DNA from: Oscillospiraceae bacterium
Lineage (GTDB): Bacteria; Bacillota; Clostridia; Saccharofermentanales; Saccharofermentanaceae
Length of the DNA: 64,000 nt
Direction: 5' to 3'
Assembly (NCBI GenBank): GCA_902788505.1
Contig: CADAKH010000008.1
Location: 1 to 64,000 of the forward strand
In this document: piece after piece, positions 44,094-47,864 of the stretch
Layout: every line of letters starts with the position of its first letter
Position numbering within the stretch: the stretch's first letter is position 1
Translations under genes and position numbers: made by a program
The notes under the pieces: model-generated
The model's database searches: none
Told to the model about the DNA's origin: nothing
What the model saw: only the letters and a program-made list of their open reading frames with translations

Positions 44094-44798
44094 ATGAGGG
44101 GAATCGTTTTCGACATAGATGACACGCTCTACTGTAGACAGGATATGCTCGTTCAGGCGGCAGAGAGCGTTATTGGAGTTAAAGTCAGAGACTGGCGTGA
44201 ATTCATAAGCATTTTCTACGAGAAGAGCGACATCAACATGGCAGCGCTCGAATCAGGAGAGATCTCCACCAGGGACATAAACGGCTGGCGCTACAATGAG
44301 ACATTCAGAATACTGGGTCTCCCCTTTAAGCCCGAAGACGGGTGCCTCTCGGCTGATGCATATCTTGAGCTTCAGAGCCACATGTTCTTAAGTGATGACA
44401 TGAAGAAGGCATTGGACAGATTTGCTTCAGATCCTGAATTCAAGCTCGCGATACTTACAGCAGGCGAATCAAAGCACCAGTGGCACAAAGTAGACATGCT
44501 CGGCCTTGATAAATGGTTCGACCGCGCAAATATTCTCGTTACCGGCGACACGGGCTTCTCGAAGCCTGACATAAGATTATGCAGGATAATAGAAGACAAT
44601 CTTGATCTTAAGCCCGGAGAACTTTGGATGATCGGTGACAATTACGACAAGGACATCACGGGAGCATTGGATTCAGGCTGGCATTCCATATGGATCAACA
44701 GAAGAAATCTTCCAAAGCCGGAAAGACTTCCCGACTATGAGGTCCTTACGGATAAAGAACTAACGGATCTTCTGCTTACGGATTTTTATAAGAATTAG
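44094..44798 (+). CDS. HAD-superfamily hydrolase
   Basis: 234 residues. HAD motifs: GIVFDIDDTLYCR (motif I, DxDxT), LAILTAGES (motif II, Thr), Lys in FSKPDIRL, and IGDNYDKDITGA (motif IV). Helical cap type. Probably a small-molecule phosphatase, substrate unknown. ATG follows GGAG, and a TTG lies one codon earlier. A TATAAT at 44050-44055 is a possible -10. Its last four bases overlap the end of the convergent radical SAM gene. Confidence 0.9.
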   Translation: MRGIVFDIDDTLYCRQDMLVQAAESVIGVKVRDWREFISIFYEKSDINMAALESGEISTRDINGWRYNETFRILGLPFKPEDGCLSADAYLELQSHMFLSDDMKKALDRFASDPEFKLAILTAGESKHQWHKVDMLGLDKWFDRANILVTGDTGFSKPDIRLCRIIEDNLDLKPGELWMIGDNYDKDITGALDSGWHSIWINRRNLPKPERLPDYEVLTDKELTDLLLTDFYKN

Positions 44799-45865
44799 GC
44801 TTTTACTGCAAAGAAATCAGCGAATTCCTTGGCATTATACTCGTAGAGCTCGTCGCCGAGTCTGTCGGCAACTTCAATTATCGTGCGTTCATACGTGCAC
44901 TGTAGAGGAGATACTTTATCCGCGCTGCCGGTATTCATGCGGTTAGCACATCCGCAGGAATTCGTGCATCTGCTCTTAAGGTCACATTCCTTGCATGTCT
45001 CAGGAGTATTGCTCTTAGCTGCGATCTTAGCCATGCGTTCTTTATCGAGTCCCTCGAAAACATTACCCATGTAATACTCTTCGTCGTTTATAAAAGATGT
45101 GCACGGATAGATGTTGCCGTCGGGAGTTACAGAAAGCTGTCTTACGCCAAGATGGCAGTGCTCTGCAGGATTCTTACCGTTAACACACTCTCTTATCTTG
45201 TTGACAAGCGGAGTGACATAATGCTTTCTTCCTGCCTTGAATTCATCTCTTAAGAAATCAGCTACCTTATTGATCTCAACTTTATATACTTCAAGATCTT
45301 CGTCAGTCCATGAGACATTCTTGCCGTATGCCATGACAGTCGACACATCCCTGAAACCCAACGAAAGAAGATACTTTACGGAGTCGCATAAAACGCCGCA
45401 TGCCTTGGGGTCGAGCGTCAGCATAGCCATAGTGTTCGGAAGATAGGACAGGATGAGTTTTGCCTTCTTCTCAAGAATTTCTGCAGTTGAACTTCCGTCA
45501 GGAAAACGTCTTGAAATGTCCTGACCTTTGCCGTCAAAAGAAAGTCCGATCTTCATGTTGACTGCCTTGGCTCTTTTTAAGAATTCCTCATCAATGAGAG
45601 TTCCGTTCGTGGTCATCTTGCAGGCGAAAGGAATGCCTGTCTCAGAAGTCTTCTTTTCGCAATAATCGAGAGCCTCATAGATGAGGTCTTTCTTTAACAG
45701 AGGCTCGCCTCCGAAAAAGCAAAAGCCCGCTTTGTTTCCTTTGGAATAAGCGAGGTCTATAGTCTTATATAATGTCTCCAAAGACATGTCCCGGGGAGTC
45801 TTTTCTCTAAGGCAGTAACTGCATGCCATGTTGCAGTTCTCTGTAAGATGGACCGTAAAATTCAT
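44795..45865 (-). CDS. Radical SAM/SPASM peptide-modifying enzyme
   Basis: 356 residues. The CxxxCxxC cluster motif is at the N-terminus (CNMACSYC), with GFCFFGGEPLL and KMTTNGTLI following. The C-terminal SPASM domain carries the cysteines of two extra Fe-S clusters: CHLGVRQLSVTPDGNIYPC, then CKEC, CTNSC and a final QC. Enzymes of this build modify ribosomal peptides or sulfatases. A small lipoprotein-like gene ends 6 bp upstream and a paralogue precedes it. They are the obvious candidate substrates, so this may be a maturase of a ribosomally made peptide. Confidence 0.9.
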   Translation of the reverse strand: MNFTVHLTENCNMACSYCLREKTPRDMSLETLYKTIDLAYSKGNKAGFCFFGGEPLLKKDLIYEALDYCEKKTSETGIPFACKMTTNGTLIDEEFLKRAKAVNMKIGLSFDGKGQDISRRFPDGSSTAEILEKKAKLILSYLPNTMAMLTLDPKACGVLCDSVKYLLSLGFRDVSTVMAYGKNVSWTDEDLEVYKVEINKVADFLRDEFKAGRKHYVTPLVNKIRECVNGKNPAEHCHLGVRQLSVTPDGNIYPCTSFINDEEYYMGNVFEGLDKERMAKIAAKSNTPETCKECDLKSRCTNSCGCANRMNTGSADKVSPLQCTYERTIIEVADRLGDELYEYNAKEFADFFAVKA

Positions 45866-45871
45866 GTCAGA

Positions 45872-46078
45872 TCATTCCTCTGCTTCAGTTTCTTCAACCG
45901 CTTCGGTCTCAGCTGTCTGTGCAGCGCCTCCAAGCTGTACTTCGGTCTCGACAATATCCATACCGCCTGCAATCTGAGGTCCGCATGCAGTACCGAACAA
46001 AGCAGTTGCTCCAATAAGAGTTGCAATGCCGACAGCATACAAAGGCTTCTTATAATCATGTTTAGGATTTATCTTCAT
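45872..46078 (-). CDS. Small lipoprotein-like candidate substrate peptide 1
   Basis: 68 residues. N-terminus KINPKHDYKKPLYAVG, a hydrophobic stretch, then ALFGTAC at residue 32, which fits the general lipoprotein lipobox pattern, followed by GPQIAGG. The tail is acidic with EVQLGGAA and then Glu/Ala/Thr-rich. Thirty of the first 34 residues match the neighbouring gene at 46115-46405. It lies directly upstream of the radical SAM enzyme (6-bp gap). Family not recognised. It is either a substrate of that enzyme or an unrelated surface lipoprotein. Confidence 0.75.
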   Translation of the reverse strand: MKINPKHDYKKPLYAVGIATLIGATALFGTACGPQIAGGMDIVETEVQLGGAAQTAETEAVEETEAEE

Positions 46079-46114
46079 ACTCTTCTCCCCCCTATTAAAT
46101 AAATCAGATATGGA

Positions 46115-46405
46115 TCAAGTCTCCGGCTCACATACTGTTTCACCGCCGGCAAGCTCAACATCTGTAGGATCTGTCTCAACAACTGCCACATCACCGTCAA
46201 GCTCAACATAACCGGGATCTATCGTCTCTTCACCCGCAAGCTCGATCTCTGGTTCTGAAGGCTTTGAGTCTCTGTTGCTCTTTGTTCTTCCGGCAGAATC
46301 TTTCGGACCGCAGGCCGTACCGAATAAAGCTGTTGCACCGATAAGAGTTACAACGCCGATAGCATATAAAGGTTTTTTATAATCGTGCTTAGGATCGATC
46401 TTCAT
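46115..46405 (-). CDS. Small lipoprotein-like candidate substrate peptide 2
   Basis: 96 residues from the ATG behind AAAGGAGAC. The open frame begins 7 codons earlier without a ribosome binding site. Same N-terminus as the next gene (KIDPKHDYKKPLYAIG, ALFGTACGP), then a different tail: a short basic-polar linker and an acidic part with three related words IELAGEE, VELDGDV and VELAGGE, plus one Cys near the end. The VELxG repeats recall EVQLGGAA of the paralogue and could be modification sites. First of the three-gene unit. Confidence 0.75.
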   Translation of the reverse strand: MKIDPKHDYKKPLYAIGVVTLIGATALFGTACGPKDSAGRTKSNRDSKPSEPEIELAGEETIDPGYVELDGDVAVVETDPTDVELAGGETVCEPET

Positions 46406-46532
46406 TTTTATGTCTCCTTTAATCAATCATAACATCTTTGGTTTTTCACCGGAAATCCGGCACCTTTTAATCTATATACAGATAAGGAAAAAGAATTGTT
46501 GCATCGGATTTTATTTTTTTTATGGAAGTTAC

Positions 46533-47531: not shown

Positions 47532-47864
47532 TCACGGAAGAGGGATAGCGATCTTTGGTCCTTTAATCAATTTCTGTTTGGCAATCTCTCTTGCCTCATC
47601 ATATGTAATGGGATGGCCATTATAAAAATATTCATTGTCGCTGACAGGATGAGTGACGCAGGTAATGCCGATCGTTTCCCATGCTTTGCTCACTTTATCA
47701 GAACAGTCATTCCAGTTGAACGTAGCCTCAAAGCTGTTAAAATCTCCGTCCATAAGTCCATTCTTATGAAGAAATTCACTGTCATTTACGACCTCACCGA
47801 TAACTCCGCCGCTTACGATTTCGAGATCTTTCATATCGAGATCTTTCATTTTTTTGTTTTTCAT
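47532..47864 (-). CDS. Small protein with a double-glycine leader
   Basis: 110 residues. The first 20 (MKNKKMKDLDMKDLEIVSGG) form a short charged leader ending in the Gly-Gly processing signal seen in bacteriocins and quorum peptides exported by C39-peptidase ABC transporters (LExVSGG). The remaining 90 residues are mixed, with two Cys (NDCSDK, ITCVTHP), which is long for a bacteriocin. AAGGAGG precedes the ATG and a terminator follows, so the gene is monocistronic. No peptidase-containing exporter is present in the window. Role unknown: peptide toxin, signal or RiPP precursor. Confidence 0.75.
   Translation of the reverse strand: MKNKKMKDLDMKDLEIVSGGVIGEVVNDSEFLHKNGLMDGDFNSFEATFNWNDCSDKVSKAWETIGITCVTHPVSDNEYFYNGHPITYDEAREIAKQKLIKGPKIAIPLP

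Follow-up and report, generated by a model that had tools for sequence, protein, structure and literature searches.

What does a radical S-adenosylmethionine (SAM) enzyme do at the end of a row of genes that otherwise encodes two small lipoprotein-like proteins? This question is raised by a stretch of 64,000 nucleotides from an Oscillospiraceae bacterium (contig CADAKH010000008.1, positions 1 to 64,000), here called the window, which belongs to a 2.57-Mb draft genome with rumen Oscillospiraceae and Saccharofermentans-type assemblies as its nearest named relatives. On the minus strand, between positions 46405 and 44795, pepA and pepB are followed by a gene for a radical SAM/SPASM enzyme, with gaps of 36 bp between pepA and pepB and 6 bp between pepB and the enzyme gene, the latter as an initial annotation of this DNA had stated and as the coordinates confirm. 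This annotation had interpreted the unit as a system resembling those for ribosomally synthesized and posttranslationally modified peptides (RiPPs), with substrates that carry a lipoprotein signal. It had also named two findings that would speak for abandoning this interpretation, a peptide family widespread without a radical SAM gene and an enzyme that clusters with sulfatase maturases beside a sulfatase. Neither was made, and the co-occurrence of leader and enzyme supports the interpretation. The comparisons indicate that the three genes probably specify a leader-guided radical SAM protein modification system for lipoproteins.

The products of pepA (96 amino acids, positions 46115 to 46405, minus strand) and pepB (68 amino acids, 45872 to 46078, minus strand) are leader-tagged, lipoprotein-type proteins and the candidate substrates. 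Their N termini agree in 30 of 34 positions and both finish in ALFGTACGP, exactly as first described. The start of pepA was placed at the ATG at 46405; a TTG start at 46426 in the list of open reading frames (ORFs), which would yield 103 amino acids, is not the conserved one. PepA has orthologues in the closest genomes. Residues 1 to 31 comprise the leader, MKIDPKHDYKKPLYA in PepA (46313 to 46405) and MKINPKHDYKKPLYA in PepB (45986 to 46078), plus a hydrophobic stretch, and in PepA this segment overlaps the lipoprotein signal peptide. Against a profile of leader and hydrophobic stretch from 32 diverse members, in which M1, P12, and C32 are invariant, PepA scored 64.6 bits and PepB 67.7 bits. 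Cys32 (46310 to 46312 in pepA and 45983 to 45985 in pepB) is the residue predicted to carry the lipid: it is invariant after the hydrophobic stretch in the 32-member alignment, and homologues of Lgt (256.7 bits) and LspA (128.5 bits) are encoded in the genome, the combination expected of the lipoprotein-type RiPPs known as DAG-RiPPs. No curated NCBIfam or Pfam family matched PepA or PepB above its cut-off.

Leader and enzyme occur together. The leader profile scores were bimodal in the 85 genomes of the genus, at least 42 bits or a noise of at most 23 bits. Both the leader and an enzyme of the close clade were present in 47 of these genomes and neither in 37; the enzyme never occurred alone and the leader only once (Fisher p = 2e-23, with the reservation that the genomes are related and the counts not independent). 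This places the enzyme in 47 of the 48 leader-bearing genomes of the genus. Sufficient upstream sequence was available for 46 enzyme copies. In 45 of them, the enzyme gene was preceded by a leader gene that terminated at a distance of −4 to 71 bp; between one and four leader genes were arranged in tandem, and 18 of the 45 copies had two to four. The expectation that the leader should always be found near the enzyme was thus borne out for nearly all enzyme copies but not for every leader gene, because additional ones are located away from the enzyme in enzyme-bearing genomes. Many of the genomes compared are drafts. Precursor genes adjacent to the enzyme gene, a conserved leader, and a variable core are the features of a RiPP precursor-maturase pair. 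Within the family, the enzyme was detected at an E value of at most 1e-60 in 71 of 115 genomes and in four of five genera. An order-wide search (188 genomes, E of at most 1e-50) gave matches confined to those four of 30 genera, and close homologues were rare outside the family in a phylum sample, where an E of at most 1e-35 was reached in 5 further genomes out of 398. A plasmid search returned a single match of 30% identity and no sign that the enzyme is plasmid borne.

Behind the lipid cysteine, the tails are built from a short glycine-centered word, [VPI]-x-[LYI]-x-G-[EDG]-x-x-[VI], with the consensus [ED][VPI][EQ][LYI][ADE]G[EDG][VAT]x[IV]. In 74 nonredundant tails, residues were biased around the glycines at positions −4, −2, −1, +1, +2, and +4, and hydrophobic-x-Gly-[DEAGTNS], a pattern written after the sequences had been inspected, matched 193 times compared to 63 ± 7 times in composition-preserving shuffles. 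The YPT group gave 54 motif matches compared to 19 ± 4. Motif statistics assign IELAGEE, VELDGDV, and VELAGGE in PepA to the motifs EIELAGEETI (46220 to 46249), YVELDGDVAV (46181 to 46210), and DVELAGGETV (46133 to 46162), and QIAGGMD and VQLGGAA in PepB to PQIAGGMDIV (45950 to 45979) and TEVQLGGAAQT (45914 to 45946), the L and G of the last being kept in orthologues. All words listed in the initial annotation were recovered, but the tails, which it had regarded as unrelated, are rearrangements of one degenerate motif. Most small tails contain one to six words, commonly spaced by 13 to 17 residues, and Asp plus Glu account for 27% of their residues.

The window genome and three close genomes with nearly identical enzymes were used to compare nonsynonymous divergence (dN), which was 0.001 to 0.004 for the enzyme, 0 to 0.04 for the leader, and up to 0.30, with insertions and deletions, for the tails. 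By this measure, the tails change far faster than leader or enzyme. The L and G of the word were nevertheless kept among close orthologues, for instance in VQLGGAA, VQLEGEA, and VALAGET. PepB is shorter than its orthologues of 109 to 112 amino acids in the three close genomes, with about 41 tail residues missing in frame, and PepA lacks 18 C-terminal residues relative to three near-identical loci.

The initial interpretation needs an amendment here, since small peptides are not the only bearers of the leader. Most members are short, as expected of RiPP precursors, yet lipoproteins of 143 to about 410 amino acids begin with the same leader. Within 60 residues after the cysteine, the word was present in 14 of the 14 nonredundant large leader proteins caught by the pattern, but in only 7 of the 31 control lipoproteins encoded at these loci (p = 7e-7), a conservative contrast since several of the controls belong to the wider family. 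In the large leader proteins, it is located mostly between the lipid cysteine and the folded domain. None of those tested matched a Pfam or NCBIfam family above cut-off. A leader lipoprotein of about 390 amino acids contains a HELTH motif of the zinc-peptidase type (L107, 2045 to 3265, minus strand; L108, 2719 to 3933, plus strand; L109, 2351 to 3580, minus strand) and has no Pfam match; in L107 and L108, another lipoprotein with the leader is encoded next to it.

In the window, a convergent gene for a HAD-type hydrolase and an upstream acyltransferase gene flank the unit. Because the genes upstream of the pair vary among related loci, the unit consists of pepA, pepB, and the enzyme gene alone. 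Beside the pair, the related loci compared had no recurring gene for a protease, an exporter, immunity, or a regulator, and scans for promoters and terminators gave nothing above chance. A 110-amino-acid ORF without family match (47532 to 47864, minus strand) starts with MKNKKMKDLDMKDLEIVSGG, which resembles the double-glycine leader of a bacteriocin-type precursor.

The small tandem precursors with their conserved leader and fast-evolving tails could also be those of a classical RiPP, in which the tails are the cores of a released bioactive or signaling peptide, the repeated words are cleaved into short peptides, and lipidation is transient because an unlinked protease sheds the tail. The lack of recurring protease, exporter, immunity, and regulator genes argues against this, as does the presence of leader and word on lipoproteins of 140 to 400 amino acids with globular domains, which would be odd for a released peptide. 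This explanation is regarded as unlikely.

The enzyme itself (356 amino acids, 44795 to 45865, minus strand) matched Pfam PF04055 (Radical_SAM) with 60.3 bits and PF13186 (SPASM) with 28 bits, both exceeding the gathering scores. Its CX3CX2C motif (C11, C15, and C18; residues 11 to 18, 45812 to 45835), which should bind the SAM-cleaving 4Fe-4S cluster, is kept in 96% of 81 homologues, and the seven SPASM cysteines C237, C255, C291, C294, C300, C304, and C323 (44897 to 45157), which are assigned to auxiliary clusters, are kept in 96 to 100%, so that each of the ten cluster cysteines is found in 96 to 100% of the homologues. This makes the protein a radical SAM/SPASM enzyme with the complete cysteine set that had been claimed for it. 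By sequence and by fold, the nearest solved relatives were CteB (5wgg/5why) and the anaerobic sulfatase-maturating enzyme (anSME) anSMEcpe (4k36-4k39), which share the radical SAM barrel and the SPASM domain; the AlphaFold model, calculated from seven sequences, had a poor SPASM half (mean predicted local distance difference test score, 65.9; 100 residues below 50) and served for the fold match only. CteB is longer and forms a thioether in a Cys-rich peptide, whereas anSME oxidizes a Cys or Ser of sulfatases. Assignment to the sulfatase maturases of TIGR03942 was rejected (73.4 bits compared to a cut-off of 349.45), and no sulfatase gene adjoins the enzyme gene. TIGR04133 (rSAM_w_lipo) was also rejected (47 bits, cut-off 425), and TIGR04134 (lipo_with_rSAM) had no match in the genome, nor in the control genomes.

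The best curated NCBIfam match was the PapB ranthipeptide maturase NF047865. PapB and its precursor PapA, which contains Cys-X3-Asp/Glu repeats (PMC9413430), resemble the window system in a full-length SPASM enzyme with no extra N-terminal domain in the model and in a repeated target motif in the substrate. The enzyme might therefore, like PapB, form a thioether between a cysteine and an Asp or Glu close by. This would agree with CteB as the best solved relative, with a cysteine five residues past the glycine in 12 of 172 small-tail motifs, and with the conserved HGDGRGSFGC stretch in lipoproteins beside the sister-clade enzymes described below. The score of 186.3 bits, however, falls far short of the 340 required for PapB, and the substrates differ from PapA in being lipoproteins without CX3D/E repeats and often without any tail cysteine, so that identity with PapB was rejected. 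Moreover, 27 of the 62 small tails contain no cysteine beyond the lipidated one and 32 a single one, which indicates that a thioether is not the general product. Thioether formation is rated slightly less likely again than the release of a classical RiPP.

In enterococci, lipoprotein signal peptides are a source of pheromones, and no part of the proteins described here is more conserved than the leader. Modification might thus concern the lysines or tyrosines of the leader/signal peptide itself, which signal peptidase II would set free as a pheromone-like peptide, with the tails being incidental. This leaves the words in the tails, and their matching place in the large leader proteins, without explanation and is considered improbable.

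Evidence for the leader as the common element comes from more distant relatives. In other genera, homologous enzymes of 35 to 44% identity adjoin lipoprotein-type proteins with a differing but alignable leader. Because such a recognizable form also accompanies homologous enzymes in other families, the leader is not private to one class. The first 15 residues of the KKPLYA clade alone were used to build a position-specific profile, with which 166,091 sequence windows from 20 distant loci were scored; N termini of enzyme-adjacent lipoproteins, e.g., MEVKPVKTYKKPGYP, MNLRPVKKYKAPTYP, and MKVLPQKNSKTPKYP, took 12 of the top 15 places. Genomes G049 and G050 belong to the genus of the window, but their enzymes group with those of genus g5 (support, 100/100), and they carry the YP (YPT) type of leader found in g5. 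In the enzyme tree, the leader type tracks the enzyme clade rather than the species. The cores differ by clade: they are stalks of G-words in the KKPLYA clade, whereas the sister clade has a domain some 200 residues long that contains HGDGRGSFGC and has a conserved C terminus. By this comparison, the leader predates the word. If the modifier is guided by the leader, this is the expected picture, with homologous enzymes next to proteins that share a homologous leader but not a related core.

The sister-clade enzymes (L161, L162, L112 to L115, L077, and L079) are preceded by lipoproteins of about 260 amino acids with a YKxPxYP leader, a conserved HGDGRGSFGC...SEEEA stretch, and the C terminus LREQVRDFLxWLxxxGII; one of them was tested and had no Pfam or NCBIfam family above cut-off. 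In L116 (275 to 2044), a 589-amino-acid protein beside a homologous enzyme carries an IPTL-type leader and two domains of the sister-clade type that flank another segment.

A related principle has been described for the DAG-RiPPs DybA/DybH and NedA/NedBC, the precursors of which have lipoprotein signals and are modified by a cytosolic metalloenzyme before lipidation by Lgt and LspA (PMC12636315). Modification ahead of lipoprotein export was shown for two lipoproteins modified by iron oxidases, and the enzyme subfamily also modifies proteins of more than 30 kDa (PMC12636315). The window system shares the lipoprotein-signal precursor. It differs in the enzyme, which is a multinuclear non-heme iron oxidase (MNIO) with a Cys-containing motif in the DAG-RiPPs and a radical SAM/SPASM protein here, and in the leader, because mainly leader-independent enzymes are expected for DAG-RiPPs (PMC12636315) whereas signal peptide and conserved leader form one segment in the window system. 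The substrates of the latter also extend to whole proteins. In the literature searched, to which subscription journals contributed little, so that its silence is weak evidence, only the MNIO-based DAG-RiPP preprint and no radical SAM/SPASM RiPP-lipoprotein hybrid was found, and likewise no paper text on TIGR04133 or TIGR04134. The names of these two families, which denote a lipoprotein and its radical SAM/SPASM partner, agree with the window system despite scores far below the cut-offs and mean that such pairs had been proposed earlier.

A second pair exists in the same genome. Its SPASM enzyme (G000:C21:15434-16504) reached 256 bits to TIGR04133, again under the cut-off of 425, and its gene directly follows that of a 103-amino-acid lipoprotein-type protein with an MKRSKKPLTF leader and four VYGPPP repeats (pair in L132, 1166 to 1477 and 1483 to 2556, plus strand). 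All 30 homologous loci examined encoded a lipoprotein-type protein with the VYGPP word. That the lineage contains two such pairs, independent of each other but alike in architecture, strengthens the interpretation as a modification system for lipoproteins, and the VYGPP pair suggests a wider, largely unnamed class.

Some points weigh against this interpretation, beyond the pattern written after inspection and the relatedness of the genomes. All evidence is comparative, and both the modification and the VELxG site are deduced from it. No RiPP recognition element domain or partner gene was seen, so that direct binding of the leader by the enzyme is assumed. The lipobox FGTAC of PepA and PepB is less canonical than the LTGC or VTGC of most relatives. 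The word is absent from 7 of the 62 small tails. Among the large leader proteins, a family of 201 amino acids (L098, L101, and L102) escaped the pattern search and is without the strict word, which reduces the total to 14 of 15 families. Genome G053, an 85% complete draft, has a leader without an enzyme, and in G087 the enzyme has no adjoining leader gene, the leader gene being on another contig. The latter case, and a substrate status derived from comparison, would also fit lipoproteins that deliver to or sense for an enzyme with its substrate elsewhere, which is just as improbable as the pheromone-like alternative because the leader type tracks the enzyme clade, remote leader genes are almost confined to enzyme-bearing genomes, and enzymes with homologous leaders are paired to different cores.

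In the favored modification system for lipoproteins, the SPASM enzyme would dock on roughly the 15 residues with which its substrates begin, MK[IV]xPxxxYKxPxY[A/P], a segment that would double as the n-region of the lipoprotein signal peptide. Since the enzyme has no signal of its own, it should act in the cytosol, where it would modify the repeated word downstream of the lipid cysteine ahead of lipidation. Because tag and enzyme co-occur almost without exception, remodeling of the word before the protein is anchored on the surface is the most likely activity. The substrate would then take the ordinary lipoprotein route via Sec, Lgt, and LspA. Cleavage by LspA before Cys32 would take off the leader, which makes a dedicated protease or exporter unnecessary, and none was seen. 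The modified acidic stalk would stay on the outer face of the membrane, the small substrates being nearly all stalk with up to six words and the larger ones carrying one or two words between the lipid cysteine and a globular domain.

The invariant glycine, the variable aliphatic residue or tyrosine at −2, and the frequent absence of cysteine favor a sulfur-free reaction, so that a cysteine-independent crosslink or an epimerization is the more likely product. Peptides or domains may be displayed on the surface by a stalk that is rigid and resists proteases; this role is a guess, and weakly held. It is possible, and suggested here tentatively, that one leader embedded in the signal peptide directs a set of surface lipoproteins, from stalks of 60 amino acids to a zinc-peptidase-like protein of 400 amino acids, to a single enzyme, and that the cysteine-independent G-word beside the lipid anchor undergoes a chemistry new for SPASM enzymes.

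Because two genes suffice, the system is directly accessible to experiments, and it could be a compact tool for placing modified stalks on membrane-anchored proteins. If the interpretation is correct, radical SAM chemistry would join the lipoprotein pathway, with a fusion of leader and signal peptide that lets signal peptidase II remove the leader, and a modification of the peptide type would become, in these rumen bacteria, a surface protein modification of several lipoproteins per cell.

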